From: Bacteroidales bacterium | GTDB lineage: Bacteria > Bacteroidota > Bacteroidia > Bacteroidales > UBA932 | Assembly (NCBI GenBank): GCA_017962235.1 | Contig: JAGCVS010000004.1 | Location: 62,001-126,000, forward strand | DNA: 64,000 nucleotides | Direction of reading: 5' to 3' | Shown here: positions 7,435-52,020 of the stretch, in pieces | Position numbering within the stretch: position 1 is the stretch's first letter | Layout: every line of letters starts with the position of its first letter | The notes under the pieces: generated by a model | Database searches by the model: none | The model's input: only the letters and a program-made list of their open reading frames with translations | What the model was told of the DNA's origin: nothing | Translations under genes and position numbers: made by a program

Positions 7435-10092
7435 ATGAAAAAGCTGCTTACCCTCGCTCTGTTGTGCATTCTGGCGGCCGGCTGCAACGGCACGAAATGC
7501 ACCATAACCCCCGGCAATCTTACCACTGAATACAAGCAGGATGCATTCACGGATGCGGTCAGCCCACGTTTCTCCTGGATTAACACAGGCCGCAAGGATG
7601 GCGCCACCCAGACATCATATCATATCAGGGTGTTCACCGATCCCTACCACCCGGAGAAGACCTGCTGGGATTCCGGCATCGTAATCAGCAAAGAGTCGGT
7701 GCTGATTCCCTACAAGGGTAAGGCGCTGGGCTCCTGCACCGATTACTACTGGCAGGTGCAGGTCCGCGACGAAAAGGGTGAACCCTCCAGGTGGAGCGAA
7801 GTCTGCCACTTTCACACCGGAATGCTGCTCAAGTCGCTCTGGAAAGCACAGTGGATTGGAGCCCCGTGGCAGGGAGAGGAGTCGTATGACTATGACATGA
7901 GCGAAGATGTGCAGCCCGCACCGCTTCTCCGCAAGGAGTTAGAAATCACCAAGCCTGTCAAATCTGCCCGCTTCTACGGCACCGGCCTGGGATACTTTGA
8001 ACTTTACGTTAACGGCAGCAAGATGGGCGATGAGTACCTTGTGCCCAACCAGACCAACTACGGCTACCGCGAGAAACTGGAAGAGCGTCTGCTACCCATT
8101 CCGGACCCATTCAACGGCTACAGTGTGGCATATGTGAGCTACGATTTGACAGACCAGATACGCGAAGGACGCAACGCCGTGGGCGCCATTCTGGGCAACG
8201 GCTATTACGACCTGGTGTTCCGCCGCTTTGTGATGGGCTACGGCGTGCCCAAGTTCTACGGGCAGATTCAGATCCGTTATGAAGACGGCACCTCCGAGCT
8301 GATTCCTACCGATACAACTTGGAAGATAGAAAAGAGCGCCATTGTGTTTGACCAGCTCTATTTTGGCGAGACTTACGATGCCCGTCTGGAGCATGATGGT
8401 TGGTGCGAGCCGGGTTATGACGATTCCTCCTGGGCAAACGTCGTTCCCAAGCGCGCCCCCGAAGGCGAACTGATTGCCCAGAGTGGCCTTCCTGACCGAA
8501 TCACCGCCACATACAAGCCCACCGACATACAGAAGATTGATTCTACCGGAGTGATTATTGTCACTTTTCCTGATTATATCTCCGGCTGGGTAGAGCTCAA
8601 GAATCTGAGTCTGCAGGAAGGTCAGAAGGTAACCGTTTACAACCTTACTGAGGATTACAACGCCGCAGAGAAGGCCGTGAGCGCCATGACATACATCGCC
8701 AAGGGTACCGGAAAAGAGAGCTGGCACCCCCGATTTGAGTATTACGCCTTCCAGCAGGTGGAGATTCACGGGCTGGACAATCTGCTCCCGGACCAGATTG
8801 AGGCCCAGGCGGTTAACAGCGACATAGAGCAGGCCACCGCGTTTGAAAGCTCCAACGAGTTGATAAACTACATGGACAAGATATGGCGCCGCACCCAGTT
8901 GGACAATATGCACGGCAATATCCCCACCGACACCCCGCACCGCGAGCGCATAGGCTACACTGGCGACGGACAGGCGGTAGGACCCACCGTGATGACCACC
9001 ATGAAGGCGGACTCCTTCTACTACAAGTGGATGCGCGACCTCCGCGAGGCACAGAAAGCGGACGGTTACGTGTGCAACTCGGCCCCCTGGCAGCCCGAGG
9101 CTGGCGGCGGAGTGGCCTTTGGCTCTGCCATGAACGTGATTCCGTTCGAGTTCTATATGGAATACGGCGATACCCGCGCCCTTCGCGAGTGCTACGACGC
9201 TATGGCGGCCCATACCCGCTGGATGCTTAACTGGGTGGATCCTGCAACCAACATAATGGAGAGCAAAACTGGCCGTTACTTCATGGACCTTGGCGAATGG
9301 AACGCTCCATGGGACATCCCTTCCAAGGCGTTGGTACACACCTGGTTCCTGTGGAAGTGTGCCGACAACACCGCCCGCGCAGCACAGATTCTCTCCAAAC
9401 CTGAGGATGCCGAATATTTCGCAGCCCTGCGCGATACCACCGCCGCCGCTTTCCACCGCTATTTCTGGGACGAAGAGGCGCAGTCATACGGCAAGTGGGG
9501 CAGCAACATGTGGGCGCTGGCCATGGGCGGCGCCTCGGAAGAACGCCTGCAAAAGGCTCTGGACGCCCTGGTGGCAAATATCGCGGAGTGCGGTAACCAC
9601 CTGCACGTCGGCTTCGTGGGCTGGCGCTACCTGTGCGAGATACTTGTCAGATACGGCCGTGCCGATCTGGCATACGAGATAATCAACAAGCGCGACTTCC
9701 CCAGCATCGGCTATTGGATAGAGCAGGGGGCGGTCACTTTCTGGGAGCAGTGGGACGGCGTGTTCTCCCGCAATATCCCCTTCATGGGTGGCGGCATCCG
9801 CTGGTTCTATCGCGACCTGGCTGGGCTTGAACCCACGGAGCCCGGCTATCGTGAATTCGAAATCAGACCCACCGTGGTAAAAGGTCTCGACTGGGTCAAG
9901 TTCCACAAAGACTCTCCGTACGGCCGCATCAGCATTGATTGGATGGTCGCAAACGGGGGCGCGTTCACACTCAAGTGCACCGTTCCGGTTGGCACCACCG
10001 CCACGGTTTATGTCCCGGACGGCGACGGTGTGCGCGAAGAGAAACTCGTCAGTGGTAAGTATACCCTCAAAGGAAAGGTCAACATTGAATAA
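7435..10092 (+). CDS. GH78 alpha-L-rhamnosidase, lipoprotein (copy 1 of tandem pair)
   Basis: This 885-residue secreted lipoprotein removes alpha-L-rhamnose from plant pectins, glycosides or bacterial glycans. The start at 7435 gives MKKLLTLALLCILAAGC, a signal with lipobox LAAGC; the longer reading from 7402 only adds an unlikely 11-residue extension. Order of domains: a beta-sandwich with Fn3-like features (about 25-140), the Bac_rhamnosid_N lectin-like sandwich with YFELYVNGSKMGDEYL (about 150-330), a second beta domain (about 330-440), the six-hairpin catalytic domain and a C-terminal beta domain. DTPHRERIGYTGD (499-511) carries the presumed acidic catalytic residues, and E771 in TFWEQWD is the presumed base. 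The next gene is a close paralog with many identical blocks. No susC/susD pair or sugar sensor lies nearby, so the substrate is open. Confidence 0.93.
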   Translation: MKKLLTLALLCILAAGCNGTKCTITPGNLTTEYKQDAFTDAVSPRFSWINTGRKDGATQTSYHIRVFTDPYHPEKTCWDSGIVISKESVLIPYKGKALGSCTDYYWQVQVRDEKGEPSRWSEVCHFHTGMLLKSLWKAQWIGAPWQGEESYDYDMSEDVQPAPLLRKELEITKPVKSARFYGTGLGYFELYVNGSKMGDEYLVPNQTNYGYREKLEERLLPIPDPFNGYSVAYVSYDLTDQIREGRNAVGAILGNGYYDLVFRRFVMGYGVPKFYGQIQIRYEDGTSELIPTDTTWKIEKSAIVFDQLYFGETYDARLEHDGWCEPGYDDSSWANVVPKRAPEGELIAQSGLPDRITATYKPTDIQKIDSTGVIIVTFPDYISGWVELKNLSLQEGQKVTVYNLTEDYNAAEKAVSAMTYIAKGTGKESWHPRFEYYAFQQVEIHGLDNLLPDQIEAQAVNSDIEQATAFESSNELINYMDKIWRRTQLDNMHGNIPTDTPHRERIGYTGDGQAVGPTVMTTMKADSFYYKWMRDLREAQKADGYVCNSAPWQPEAGGGVAFGSAMNVIPFEFYMEYGDTRALRECYDAMAAHTRWMLNWVDPATNIMESKTGRYFMDLGEWNAPWDIPSKALVHTWFLWKCADNTARAAQILSKPEDAEYFAALRDTTAAAFHRYFWDEEAQSYGKWGSNMWALAMGGASEERLQKALDALVANIAECGNHLHVGFVGWRYLCEILVRYGRADLAYEIINKRDFPSIGYWIEQGAVTFWEQWDGVFSRNIPFMGGGIRWFYRDLAGLEPTEPGYREFEIRPTVVKGLDWVKFHKDSPYGRISIDWMVANGGAFTLKCTVPVGTTATVYVPDGDGVREEKLVSGKYTLKGKVNIE

Positions 10093-10107: not shown

Positions 10108-12741
10108 ATGAAAAAGATCATTATCCTGGTTGCTCTCTGCGCCACGGTTGTCGGTTGCAACTGCACCAAATCTACCATCGCTCCGCAGAATCTCACAACT
10201 GAATATCAGAAGGATGCGTTCACAGATGTCGTCAGCCCCCGCTTCTCGTGGGTAAATGTCAGCAAAAAAGCCGGCGCCGCACAGACATCTTACCATATCA
10301 GGGTGTTCACAGATCCCGCCAATCCGGAAAAGACCAGCTGGGACTCCGGCATAGTTATCAGCAAAGAGTCGGTGCTGATTCCCTATAAGGGCAAGGCTCT
10401 CGGCTCCTGCACGGATTACTATTGGCAGGTTCAGGTGCGAGATGAGAAGGGCGAGGCTTCCAAGTGGAGCGAGGTGTGCCACTTCCATACCGGAGTGCTG
10501 CTGAATTCCATCTGGCAGGCACAGTGGATAGGCGCGCCCTGGCAGGGAGAGGAGTCATACGACTACGATCGCAGCGAGGATGTACAGTCCGCACCGCTGC
10601 TCCGCAAGGAGTTTGAAATAAGCAAGCCCGTCAAATCCGCACGCTTCTACGGCACCGGTCTGGGTTACTTTGAGCTGTACGTGAACGGCAGCAAGATGGG
10701 AGATGAATATCTGGTGCCCAACCAGACCAACTACGGCTATCGCGAGAAGCTGGAAGAACGTCTGATTCCGGTTCCAGATCCGTTCAACGGCTACAGTGTG
10801 GCATACGTTAGCTACGATTTGAAGGATGCCCTGGTGCAGGGAACCAACGCTGTTGGCGCTATTCTGGGCAACGGTTTCTACGACCTGGTGTTCCGCCGCT
10901 TTGTTATGGGTTACGGTGTGCCCAAGTTCTACGGGCAGATTGTAATCAAGTATGAGGACGGTACCACCGATGTGATTGCCAGCGACCCCACCTGGAAGAT
11001 TGCCAAGAGCGCGATACTCTACGACCAGATGTACATTGGCGAGCAGTACGATGCCCGCGCAGAGCACGATGGCTGGAGCAAGCCCGGCTATGATGATTCT
11101 GCCTGGGAGTCCGCAGTGCTCAAACGCGTGCCTGAAGGCGAGCTGGTGGCGCAGTTTGGCCCGAGTGACCGGGTGACCGCTACCTACAAACCTACATCCA
11201 TAGAGAAGATAGATTCCACCGGCGTGATAAAGGTCAGTTTCCCGGAAGAGATTTCCGGCTGGGTGGCTCTCAAGGATCTCAAGCTGCAGAAAGACCAGAA
11301 GATAGTTATTCGCTATATCAACGAGTCGCTTATCGGTACTAATCTATATATCGCTAACGGTTACGGCAAGGAGAGCTATCATCCCCGCTTTGAGTGGTAT
11401 GTATTCTCACAGGTTGAGATTGAGGGGCTGGATGCATTGCAGGCTGCCCAGATAGAGGCGCAGGCGGTGAATTCAGACGTACCGCAGGCCACCACCTTCG
11501 AGTCCTCCAACGAGCTGATAAACAAGATAGACAAGATATGGCGCCGCAGCATGCTGGACAACATGCACGGCGGCGTGCCCACCGACTGCCCGCACCGCGA
11601 GCGCATCGGCTATACCGGCGATGGTCAGGCAGTGGCCCCCACAACCATGATGGCGATGGGTGCGGATGCCTTCTACAACAAGTGGATTCGCGACATCCGC
11701 GAGGCGCAGAAGCCCGACGGCTATGTGGCCAATTCGGCACCCTGGCAGCCCGAGGCTGGCGGCGGCATCCCCTGGGGCGCATCCATCAACATGATTCCGT
11801 TTGACTTTTACTGGGAGTACGGCGACCTTCGCCTGCTCAAGGAGTGCTACAAGCCCATGGCAGACCAGACCCGCTGGATGACTACCTGGGTTGACCCCGC
11901 TACCGGTGTCATGGAGAGCCGCTCCGGCCACTATTTCAAGGACCTGGGCGAGTGGGTTCCGGCATACGGACTCCCTTCCAACGCATTGGTGCATACATGG
12001 TTCCTCTGGGCCTGCGCAGACCGCACGGCAAAGACTGCAGCCATACTTGGAGATGCAGAGGGTGAGGCTTATTTCACCGAGTTGCGCGACAAGACAGCCG
12101 AGGCCTTCCACCGCGCTTTCTACAATCCCGAGACTGGTTCTTACGGCAAGGACGGCAGCAACGTATTTGCCCTGGCTATGGGCGTCCCGGCAGACCGCGA
12201 GCAGAAGGTTGTGGATGCTTTGGTAGCCAATATCGCAGAACACGACAACCATCTCCACACAGGCTTTGTTGGATTCCGCTACTTGTGCGAGATGCTGGTT
12301 AAGCACGGCCATGCCGATCTGGCATACGAGATAATCAACAAGCGTGACTATCCCAGCTTCGGCTGGTGGATAGAGCAGGGGGCCACCGTTACATGGGAAC
12401 AGTGGAACGGCGATTTCTCTCACAATCACCCCTTTATGGGCGGCGGCATCCGCTGGTTCTACCGTGACCTGGCCGGTCTTGAACCCACCGAGCCCGGATA
12501 TCGCACGTTTGAAATCAGGCCCACCGTGGTGGACGGTCTCAACTGGGTCAAGTTCACCAAAGAGTGCCCTTACGGCCACATCGGCATCGACTGGAATGTG
12601 ACAGTCGGCGGTGCTTTCACCCTCAAGTGTGAAGTGCCCGTGGGTACCGTCGCCACCGTTTATGTTCCAGATGGCGACAGCGTCCGTGAAGAGGTTTTGA
12701 CCTCCGGTCGCCATACTCTCAAAGGCAGCGTCATCAGATAA
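10108..12741 (+). CDS. GH78 alpha-L-rhamnosidase, lipoprotein (copy 2 of tandem pair)
   Basis: This 877-residue paralog of the preceding gene starts 15 nt after it. The signal MKKIIILVALCATVVGC has a lipobox VVGC. It shares the same domain order and long identical runs, for example around YFELYVNGSKMGD and the C-terminal FMGGGIRWFYRDL. The catalytic motif is DCPHRERIGYTGD (from D493) and the presumed base is E764 in TWEQWN. Differences cluster in loops: copy 1 has a longer insert at about 400-430 and keeps DTP and EQWD where this copy has DCP and EQWN. A recent duplication followed by specialisation for different rhamnosides is my inference. Both are probably co-transcribed and sit on the outer membrane or its inner face. 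Confidence 0.93.
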   Translation: MKKIIILVALCATVVGCNCTKSTIAPQNLTTEYQKDAFTDVVSPRFSWVNVSKKAGAAQTSYHIRVFTDPANPEKTSWDSGIVISKESVLIPYKGKALGSCTDYYWQVQVRDEKGEASKWSEVCHFHTGVLLNSIWQAQWIGAPWQGEESYDYDRSEDVQSAPLLRKEFEISKPVKSARFYGTGLGYFELYVNGSKMGDEYLVPNQTNYGYREKLEERLIPVPDPFNGYSVAYVSYDLKDALVQGTNAVGAILGNGFYDLVFRRFVMGYGVPKFYGQIVIKYEDGTTDVIASDPTWKIAKSAILYDQMYIGEQYDARAEHDGWSKPGYDDSAWESAVLKRVPEGELVAQFGPSDRVTATYKPTSIEKIDSTGVIKVSFPEEISGWVALKDLKLQKDQKIVIRYINESLIGTNLYIANGYGKESYHPRFEWYVFSQVEIEGLDALQAAQIEAQAVNSDVPQATTFESSNELINKIDKIWRRSMLDNMHGGVPTDCPHRERIGYTGDGQAVAPTTMMAMGADAFYNKWIRDIREAQKPDGYVANSAPWQPEAGGGIPWGASINMIPFDFYWEYGDLRLLKECYKPMADQTRWMTTWVDPATGVMESRSGHYFKDLGEWVPAYGLPSNALVHTWFLWACADRTAKTAAILGDAEGEAYFTELRDKTAEAFHRAFYNPETGSYGKDGSNVFALAMGVPADREQKVVDALVANIAEHDNHLHTGFVGFRYLCEMLVKHGHADLAYEIINKRDYPSFGWWIEQGATVTWEQWNGDFSHNHPFMGGGIRWFYRDLAGLEPTEPGYRTFEIRPTVVDGLNWVKFTKECPYGHIGIDWNVTVGGAFTLKCEVPVGTVATVYVPDGDSVREEVLTSGRHTLKGSVIR

Positions 12742-49309: not shown

Positions 49310-49317
49310 TAATTTTG
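49310..49317 (+). promoter_or_regulatory. Predicted -7 promoter element for the 49363 gene
   Basis: TAATTTTG fits TAnnTTTG, 45 nt before the ATG at 49363, leaving a leader of about 40 nt that is AT-rich with no evident hairpin. Confidence 0.5.
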
Positions 49318-49362: not shown

Positions 49363-50406
49363 ATGAAAACTCTTAAAATGATTGCTGTCGTGGCCCTCGC
49401 AATGGTTATGGCAGTTTCTTGCAAGAATGCTCCCAAAGAGGAGAAGACTCCCATCGGCGTGCAGCTTTACAGCGTTCGCGACGATATGGCAAATGACTTC
49501 TACGGCACTCTCAAGGCCGTTAAGGAGATGGGTTACGACGGCGTTGAATTCGCCGGTCTGTTCGGTAACACTCCGGAGCAGGTAAAGGCTTGGTGCGAAG
49601 AGCTCGAGCTGAACCCTATTTCAGCACATGTGCCCCTGGCAGACATGGTGGCTGACATCGATGCTGTTATAAACACTTACAAGACCATCGGCTGCAAATA
49701 CGTAGCAGTGCCTTATCTTCCCGACGAGCTCCGTCCCGGCACCGACCAGTTTGTAGCTACCGTGGCTGCCGTTGCTGAAATTGGCAAGAAGATGAAGGAG
49801 GCTGGTCTGATTCTTCTCTACCACAACCACGACTTTGAGTTCAAGACCGTTGAAAACGGCGCTTACGGCCTCGATTATCTCTATGAGAATGTTCCCGCTG
49901 ACCTTCTCCAGACGGAGCTTGACCTCTGCTGGGTTAAGTATGCTGGCGTAGAGCCCGCAGAATACCTGCGCAAATACAGCGGCCGCGCTCCCGTGGTTCA
50001 TTTCAAGGATTATTTCTTTGAGGGTGCAAAAGAGGGCGACCCCTATGCTCTCATCGGTATTGAAGAGGAAGCTGAGCAGCCTCAGACCACCTTTGAGTTC
50101 CGTCCCGTTGGTTGCGGCGTGCAGGATGTACCCGCCCTTCTGGAGGCTTTCAAGGATGCCGGCAGCCAGTGGATTATTGTTGAACAGGATTCCCCCAGCA
50201 TGGGCCTGACACCCCTTCAGAGCATCAAGAAGAGCATCTGCAACCTGCATCACCTCATGTGCCCCGGCGAGTGCTGCAAGAAGGATTGCTGCAAGGAAGG
50301 TGAAGGCGAATGCTGCTATAAAGAGTGCTGTGACAAGCACGAAGGCTGCGACGAAAAAGCTTGCGACAAATGTGACGGTTGCGACAAAGAGTGCTGCGAA
50401 GAGTAA
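49363..50406 (+). CDS. Lipoprotein sugar phosphate isomerase/epimerase-like protein with cysteine-rich tail
   Basis: The 347-residue protein starts with a lipoprotein signal (MKTLKMIAVVALAMVMAVSC; lipobox AVSC). A TIM barrel of the xylose isomerase-like/AP endonuclease 2 fold follows (about 30-290), with GVQLYSVRDDM, MGYDGVEFAG, LYHNHDFEF, TELDLCWVKYAG, VVHFKDYF and IVEQDSP, consistent with metal-binding His/Glu/Asp sites. The last 56 residues (292-347, coding about 50236-50403) are remarkable: 16 cysteines in repeated CC and C-x2-4-C patterns with Lys, Glu and Asp, such as GECCKKDCC and DKCDGCDKECC. This looks like a metal-binding, metallothionein-like or zinc-knuckle tail. The barrel role is probably sugar isomerisation or epimerisation in the periplasm; the tail function is unknown. 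Confidence 0.85.
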   Translation: MKTLKMIAVVALAMVMAVSCKNAPKEEKTPIGVQLYSVRDDMANDFYGTLKAVKEMGYDGVEFAGLFGNTPEQVKAWCEELELNPISAHVPLADMVADIDAVINTYKTIGCKYVAVPYLPDELRPGTDQFVATVAAVAEIGKKMKEAGLILLYHNHDFEFKTVENGAYGLDYLYENVPADLLQTELDLCWVKYAGVEPAEYLRKYSGRAPVVHFKDYFFEGAKEGDPYALIGIEEEAEQPQTTFEFRPVGCGVQDVPALLEAFKDAGSQWIIVEQDSPSMGLTPLQSIKKSICNLHHLMCPGECCKKDCCKEGEGECCYKECCDKHEGCDEKACDKCDGCDKECCEE

Positions 50407-50426: not shown

Positions 50427-50468
50427 AAAACGAAAAGAGGTGGCCGTCCGGTCACCTCTTTTCGTTTT
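50427..50468 (+). terminator. Bidirectional intrinsic terminator between the 49363 gene and gdhA
   Basis: A 16-bp perfect stem (50427-50442 with 50453-50468), arms beginning AAAACGAAAAGAGGTG, that can extend by three pairs around a GTCC loop. A-rich on one side and T-rich on the other, it serves both convergent genes. Confidence 0.85.
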
Positions 50469-50479
50469 GAAGGGGGACT

Positions 50480-51829
50480 TTATACAATACCCTGTGCAAG
50501 CATCGCATCGGCCACCTTCATGAAGCCGGCGATATTGGCGCCCTTCACATAGTTGATGTAACCGTCGGGCTCCGTGCCGAACTCTACGCAGCGGGCGTGT
50601 ATGTTGGCCATGATACCTTTCAGCTTCTCGTCTACCTCTTCTTTGCTCCAGCCAAGACGCATGGAGTTCTGGGTCATCTCCAAACCTGAAGTGGCTACGC
50701 CGCCGGCGTTGGATGCCTTACCGGGAGAGTAGAGGATCTTGGCCTTCTGGAAGATGGAGATTGCCTCGGGGGTGGTGGGCATGTTGGCACCCTCTACCAC
50801 GCACTTGCAGCCGTTGTTAATCAGCATCTGTGCCTGTTCTGCGTTCAGCTCGTTCTGGGTTGCGCAAGGCATAGCAATGTCGCACTTCACGCTCCATGGA
50901 CGCTCGTTTGCAGTGTAGGTTGCAGAAGGATATTTCTCTGCATACTCACGGATACGGCCCCTCTGCACGTTCTTGAGCAGGAATACGTATGCGAGCTTCT
51001 CCTCGTCTATTCCGTCGGGGTCATAGATGAAGCCGTTGGAGTCGGAGAGGGTTACGACTTTTGCACCCAGTGCGGTTGCCTTCTGTGCTGCATATTGTGC
51101 AACGTTGCCGCTGCCGGAGATTGCAACCACCTTGCCCTTGTAGCTCTCGCCGCGGGTGGCGAGCATCGACTGGCCAAAGTAGCATGCGCCGTATCCGGTA
51201 GCCTCCGGACGGATAAGGGAGCCGCCAAAGCTGAGTCCCTTGCCGGTGAAAGTGCCGGTGAACTCGTTTGCCAGACGCTTGTACTGGCCGAACATATAGG
51301 CAACCTCGCGGCCGCCCACGCCTATGTCACCTGCCGGAACGTCTGTGTCGGGGCCGATGTGGCGGTAGAGCTCTGTGATGAAGCTCTGGCAGAAGCGCAT
51401 CACCTCCATGTCCGATTTTCCCTTGGGGTCAAAGTCGCTGCCGCCCTTGCCGCCGCCCATGGGGAGGGTGGTGAGGCTGTTCTTGAAGGTCTGCTCAAAT
51501 GCAAGGAACTTGAGGATGCTCAGATTCACGCTTGGGTGGAAACGGACACCGCCCTTGTAGGGACCTATGGCGCTGTTCATCTGTATGCGGTAACCTTTGT
51601 TGATCATTACTTCTCCCGAGTCGGAAACCCAGGGGACGCGGAACATCACGACCCTTTCCGGTTCTACGATGCGCTCCATCACTTTGAGCCTCATCAACTG
51701 CGGGTTCTCTACAATCATGGGAGCGACGCTGTCCACGACCTCCCGGACGGCCTGGTGGAATTCCTTCTCGCCGGGGTTCTTGGCAACGACATCTGCCATT
51801 AGTTTGTCTGCATACTCTTTAGGTGTCAT
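50480..51829 (-). CDS. gdhA: NADP-specific glutamate dehydrogenase
   Basis: The 449-residue hexameric enzyme makes glutamate from 2-oxoglutarate and ammonia. The start at 51829 (MTPKEYADKLMADVV) is the family start; a 41-residue extension from 51952 would cross the promoter. The substrate site shows GGVRFHPSVNLSILKFLAFEQTFKNSLTTLPMGGGKGGSDFDPKGKS, given here as the K-containing blocks PMGGGKGGSDFDPKGKS and GPYKGGVRFHP. The coenzyme site shows VAISGSGNVAQYAAQ with a following DSNG. Such enzymes are main ammonia-assimilation routes in gut Bacteroidetes. It is monocistronic, with a promoter at 51876-51883 and a strong terminator. Confidence 0.96.
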   Translation of the reverse strand: MTPKEYADKLMADVVAKNPGEKEFHQAVREVVDSVAPMIVENPQLMRLKVMERIVEPERVVMFRVPWVSDSGEVMINKGYRIQMNSAIGPYKGGVRFHPSVNLSILKFLAFEQTFKNSLTTLPMGGGKGGSDFDPKGKSDMEVMRFCQSFITELYRHIGPDTDVPAGDIGVGGREVAYMFGQYKRLANEFTGTFTGKGLSFGGSLIRPEATGYGACYFGQSMLATRGESYKGKVVAISGSGNVAQYAAQKATALGAKVVTLSDSNGFIYDPDGIDEEKLAYVFLLKNVQRGRIREYAEKYPSATYTANERPWSVKCDIAMPCATQNELNAEQAQMLINNGCKCVVEGANMPTTPEAISIFQKAKILYSPGKASNAGGVATSGLEMTQNSMRLGWSKEEVDEKLKGIMANIHARCVEFGTEPDGYINYVKGANIAGFMKVADAMLAQGIV

Positions 51830-51875
51830 AGGTTTGAAGATTATTTTGTTGTTATTTGTTGCAATTTGCAATTGC

Positions 51876-51904
51876 AAAGATAAATGATTTATTGATAATA
51901 CAAA
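51876..51904 (-). promoter_or_regulatory. Predicted gdhA promoter
   Basis: On the minus strand a perfect -7 TATCTTTG (51876-51883) lies 46 nt before the gdhA ATG. A TTTG at 51901-51904 stands 17 bp upstream of it, 2-3 bp short of the usual spacing, so its role as the -33 element is uncertain. The rest of the 51830-52035 spacer is AT-rich with nothing else I can name. Confidence 0.5.
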
Positions 51905-52020
51905 TAATATCGCTCCAAAATAGTTTTGAACGCACTTTTCAACATGTTTCAAATTGTAAGTAAGAATAGCGGCCGTGATTGAATTTTTGCGTTTCTGAGT
52001 ATTTCTTCGTAATTTAGTTT

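Follow-up and report, generated by a model that had tools for sequence, protein, structure and literature searches.

A selected, clade-specific cysteine-doublet tail on a predicted envelope lipoprotein of the 3-keto-glycoside lyase/eliminase kind in Bacteroidales

Within the window, i.e., the whole stretch of 64,000 nucleotides of Bacteroidales DNA analyzed here, the open reading frame at positions 49363 to 50406 on the forward strand runs for 347 codons without interruption and encodes a 347-residue protein whose C-terminal tail is a real, selected, clade-specific extension built on cysteine doublets. This tail is without catalogued relatives, and the enzyme that carries it is of a recognizable 3-keto-glycoside lyase/eliminase kind.

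Layout, composition, and conservation of the tail

The protein begins with a predicted lipoprotein signal peptide (residues 1 to 19; positions 49363 to 49419) that ends in AVS before Cys20 (49420 to 49422), the predicted site of lipidation; by inspection, a similar lipobox-like ending occurs in the genus orthologues, in agreement with a preliminary description of the protein as a lipoprotein. A TIM barrel of the AP_endonuc_2 fold (residues 30 to 290; 49450 to 50232; PF01261, E value of 4e-16) is followed by an anchor segment, SICNLHHLMCPGEC (residues 291 to 304; 50233 to 50274), which in the orthologue alignment is better conserved than the rest of the tail. The cysteine-rich tail covers residues 292 to 347 (56 amino acids, or 57 counted from Ser291; 50236 to 50403), all of these features lying on the forward strand. 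With pLDDT values of 40 to 55, versus mostly >90 in the barrel, the tail is predicted to be intrinsically disordered.

As first described, the last 56 residues hold 16 cysteines, in frame and followed by the stop codon, a number with a binomial probability of ∼2e-16 (16 of 57) at the background cysteine frequency of 1.5% taken from 41 window genes. The next cysteine-densest 57-residue stretch in the window holds 6 cysteines, and the other two forward frames across the tail stretch encode 2 and 0. Five CC doublets account for 10 of the 16 cysteines, including the arrangements CC-x3-CC and CC-x6-CC, along with two C-x2-C and four C-x3-C spacings. Thus, the CC pairs reported initially were confirmed, whereas the C-x-C spacings reported with them were absent from this tail and avoided across the set (1 observed versus 43 expected in 13 tails). 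In comparison, CC doublets were enriched, with 62 observed versus 43.7 in shuffles and only 1 of 2,000 shuffles as high. Past the anchor, the tail consists of 27% Cys, ∼32% Asp plus Glu, 18% Lys, and 10% Gly, with almost no aromatic or hydrophobic residues, a composition that would suit metal binding. Neither an Fe-S site nor a heme site is conserved, considering that the ferredoxin motif C-x2-C-x2-C-x3-C and CxxCH were found in only 2 and 1 of 13 tails, respectively.

Barrel searches of 26 genus genomes revealed the gene in 14, and every one of these copies carried a C-terminal cysteine-bearing extension (39 to 92 amino acids with 5 to 23 cysteines), so that the tail is indeed present in close relatives; 13 of these extensions contained 10 to 23 cysteines in 42 to 92 residues, and the most divergent one (L015) contained 5 in 39. 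A frameshift, named at the outset as what could refute the tail, or an assembly error was rejected as its source because every genus orthologue, in 13 genomes besides the window's own, reads the tail in the same frame. Differences in tail length are whole-codon insertions and deletions in which aligned cysteines are kept, and a tandem duplication is visible in the L011 tail; no DNA-level tandem array was detected in the window copy of the tail. Moreover, tail pN was well below pS in seven orthologue pairs (e.g., 0.136 versus 0.66 when the window copy is compared with L003, and 0.000 versus 0.18 for L005 and L006), and six of the seven close pairs kept every aligned cysteine column, while non-cysteine columns were kept at 63 to 100%.

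The flanks of the gene were examined as well. A −7-like element at 49310 to 49317 on the forward strand (taattttg), upstream of the lyase gene, matches TAnnTTTG, the Bacteroidales-type −7 consensus, a pattern shared by the 12 orthologue upstream regions that were aligned. Downstream, a terminator-like hairpin (aaaacgaaaagaggtg / cacctcttttcgtttt; 50427 to 50468) was recognized by its sequence between two convergent genes, ∼20 nucleotides past the stop codon; a simple hairpin scan did not report it, and the downstream alignment placed hairpins of other sequence at the same position in the orthologues. The hairpin close after the stop codon and the conserved upstream element indicate that the tail is the true end of the gene, which, judging from these two signals, is probably transcribed alone.

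The window copy is flanked by a lysine/DAP operon and gdhA, and where the contig of a tail-bearing genome extends far enough, the gene adjoins the lysC-dap operon, usually lying between lysC-dap and gdhA. The gdhA reading frame (50480 to 51952, reverse strand) was listed with a TTG start and 490 residues, while an in-frame ATG start giving 449 residues is more plausible. In 12 of the 26 genus genomes, most of them incomplete, no copy of the lyase gene was seen, and given these genomes the gene may be dispensable. Seven of the 12 form a sub-lineage (L211 to L217) whose LysC is ∼54 to 57% identical to that of the window; neither the lyase gene nor gdhA was seen in the short stretch beside its lysC, a pattern suggesting that the lysC-side region was lost, gained, or replaced in a lineage-specific manner.

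The barrel enzyme and relatives of the tail

The closest solved structures by sequence were AtOGE (8BVK; E value of 3e-28) and AL1 (8TCD; 2e-27), and those by fold in Foldseek were AL1, BT1, and AtOGE (E values of 8e-20 and 7e-16, probability of 1.00). AtOGE, an O-glycoside beta-eliminase of Agrobacterium tumefaciens, is an Mn2+ enzyme with the metal ligands His132, Asp163, His189, and Glu233 and the catalytic His134 (PMC10628242). At ∼30% identity, all five residues are matched in the window protein, by His154, Asp187, His213, Glu274, and His156, respectively, and are invariant in 111 of 111 alignment rows including 8BVK; AtOGE differs in being a 259-residue chain without a cysteine tail. AL1 of Alistipes (8TCD/8TCR) and BT1 of Bacteroides thetaiotaomicron (8TCT), both 3-keto-beta-glucopyranoside-1,2-lyases, were the best Foldseek matches, were recovered by sequence as well, and share the fold at 26 to 31% identity, whereas the cysteine tail has no similar PDB chain. 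Hence, the barrel, initially called an isomerase, is better named a relative of the Mn2+ 3-keto-glycoside beta-eliminases/1,2-lyases. The myo-inosose-2 dehydratase IolE was also rejected, with 39.8 bits against a cutoff of 290 bits for the NCBIfam equivalog TIGR04379.

The same genome encodes several 3keto-disac_hyd (DUF1080) proteins, among them one clear lipoprotein, as well as Gfo/Idh/MocA oxidoreductases that have twin-arginine-like starts, so that a role of the lyase in exported 3-keto-glycoside breakdown is predicted as likely. A cluster of Gfo/Idh/MocA and 3keto-disac_hyd genes was observed at ∼47 to 53.5 kb of contig C3 of this genome (G000; L218, L220, L222, L225, and L228); two of its oxidoreductases carry twin-arginine-like signals, and the cluster is likely an exported 3-keto-glycoside pathway.

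Phylogenetic analysis of the barrel placed the genus orthologues together with L036 (a Bacteroidaceae MAG) and L037 (an Alistipes MAG) in one clade with support of 100/92. The basal relative L036 bears a 47-residue Cys/His tail, CDHNHGEGSCDHK, and L037 bears a 21-residue tail with two cysteines; therefore, the extension probably dates from near the root of this clade, with expansion following later. Outside it, the earlier statement that family members end near the barrel was borne out. Clostridial homologues, mostly 50 to 60% identical, have neither a lipobox by a simple pattern nor a tail, and a second, sister Bacteroidales clade (L106 and L126 to L141), also predicted to be lipidated, ends ∼10 residues after the barrel.

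As had been suggested, the same tail was sought on other proteins. Across overlapping sets of genomes, 26 from the genus, 399 from the family, and 384 from the order, the tail profile matched no other protein, although this profile misses the most diverged tails (L014 matched weakly and L015 not at all) and equally remote relatives could escape it. Two weak family matches (L209 and L210) contain no cysteine-rich reading frame; thus, a mobile cysteine-rich domain on other proteins has no instance by this profile. No PDB chain matched the profile, Pfam gave for the tails only one marginal match to a single member (E value of 0.047), and PADLOC gave no defense family match. A search of the same genome for the CC pattern returned 152 matches, mostly in reading frames unrelated to cysteine arrays, and literature searches for Bacteroidetes proteins with a cysteine-rich C-terminal tail or extension found nothing.

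Possible functions of the tail

Our favored reading, which we hold to be about evenly poised, is that the protein is an envelope-anchored, Mn2+-type 3-keto-glycoside beta-eliminase/lyase whose disordered cysteine-doublet tail serves as a multi-site soft-metal thiolate sink. The lyase would be exported, lipidated, and anchored in the cell envelope, where the tail thiolates could bind Zn2+, Cu+, Cd2+, and possibly As(III) at several sites. Because the last TIM-barrel helix would point away from the catalytic face, the tail would exit near the N-terminal anchor, and, tethered beside the enzyme, the sink would scavenge thiophilic ions in the envelope and thereby might spare the more weakly held Mn2+ from displacement or nearby envelope proteins from harm; this protective step is proposed from general metal-affinity chemistry. 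Little is known of how gut Bacteroidales handle metals at their envelope, and glycan breakdown by way of 3-keto-glycoside cleavage has been described only recently; a lyase with a thiolate tail would join these two fields. If the sink is real, a metal-binding module can arise and grow on an existing enzyme by codon-level repeat expansion.

In support of the sink, we counted the cysteine extensions on 14 of 14 genus copies, the retention of cysteine columns, pN below pS, the composition, the CC enrichment, and the disorder, together with the Cys/His tail of L036, the linker motif of L126 (described below), and a mixed cysteine parity; the avoidance of C-x-C and the 12 of 26 genus genomes without a gene copy were counted against it. 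Its main weakness is the neighborhood, since no metal-homeostasis gene adjoins the lyase gene among the flanking genes examined. A precedent for a variable metal-binding tail is SlyD, an FKBP-type metallochaperone whose enzyme domain carries a C-terminal tail that is unstructured and variable and contains many Cys, His, Asp, and Glu residues (PMC7055735). However, the SlyD tail is His-rich, whereas the present tail is Cys-rich with few His and belongs to an unrelated enzyme that is predicted to be exported and lipidated. The bacterial metallothioneins SmtA and MymT likewise combine high cysteine content with almost no aromatic residues, but they are free small proteins rather than an appendage of an envelope enzyme, and the present tail has CC doublets in place of C-x-C, which is typical of many metallothioneins. 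Moreover, no Pfam metallothionein matched the whole protein or 12 tails, and the initial label "metallothionein-like" does not hold in the strict sense.

Because thiolates bind Zn, Cu(I), Cd, and As(III) in preference to Mn, a soft-metal sink or shield is favored over storage of the cofactor. For this reason, and because the C-terminal helix would end opposite the active site, the original proposal that the tail supplies metal to the barrel, whose His/Asp/Glu site holds Mn2+ in AtOGE, is unlikely. We accordingly regard as quite improbable a store from which a divalent ion would be transferred to the barrel site, as proposed for the metal-rich regions of SlyD or HypB: the metal-dependent barrel has a complete ligand set and tails of the SlyD type, which differ in length, each take up several ions (PMC7055735), but the Mn2+ used by AtOGE (PMC10628242) is poorly bound by thiolates, TIM-barrel topology would put the C-terminus opposite the active-site face, and the same site persists in the tailless Clostridial and sister-clade enzymes. 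A similarly low probability is assigned to a trap for As(III)/Sb(III) formed by CC doublets a few residues apart, like the vicinal pairs of ArsD. In Escherichia coli R773 ArsD, CC-x5-CC (Cys112-113 and Cys119-120) is implicated in metalloid-dependent regulation (PMC4562236), to which the CC-x3-CC and CC-x6-CC of the tail, with its avoidance of C-x-C, can be compared. Yet this likeness is one of spacing only, with ArsD having fewer pairs at another location, and no ars gene occurs among the flanking genes examined.

The predominance of CC doublets and a location predicted outside the cytoplasm would also fit a thiol-redox or disulfide tail, in which intra- or intermolecular disulfides between the CC pairs would cross-link the lipoprotein with itself or with further envelope proteins, or which would buffer reductant in an anaerobe. 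We consider this unlikely, as orthologues differ in whether their mature proteins contain an odd or an even total of cysteines, which weakly disagrees with obligatory full disulfide pairing, the spacing past the anchor is little conserved, and the anaerobic gut habitat disfavors massive oxidation. Neutral low-complexity expansion without function is very improbable: the range in length from 39 to 92 residues and the duplication in L011 would be in keeping with it, but every genus orthologue has the tail, pN is well below pS, cysteine columns are specifically retained, and the window copy shows no tandem array at the DNA level.

Cysteine-bearing linkers in the sister clade

Six members of the sister clade (L126, L127, L129, L132, L133, and L140) bear CC pairs between the lipidated cysteine and the barrel, as exemplified by the N-terminal linkers CAGKGGKCCKKECCQTQF and CCGGQQSTCECCSCQ. 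These pairs follow closely on the lipidated cysteine in several members, and the L126 linker motif GKCCKKECCQ is nearly identical to GECCKKDCCK of the C-terminal tail, both being CC-x3-CC. Among 25 lipoprotein-like reading frames from the window and neighboring loci, 17 had no linker cysteine, and the 4 with at least 3 were all lyase orthologues in sister genera. It is possible, though we rather doubt it, that the two Bacteroidales clades separately evolved cysteine-doublet metal or metalloid appendages, one as an N-terminal linker and the other as a fast-expanding C-terminal tail, with the lyase doubling as an envelope-anchored soft-metal trap. In addition, two large lipoproteins encoded side by side elsewhere in the window (7435 to 10092 and 10108 to 12741, forward strand) have similar N-terminal linkers (NLTTEYxKDAFTDxV), and their genes are probably a tandem duplication.
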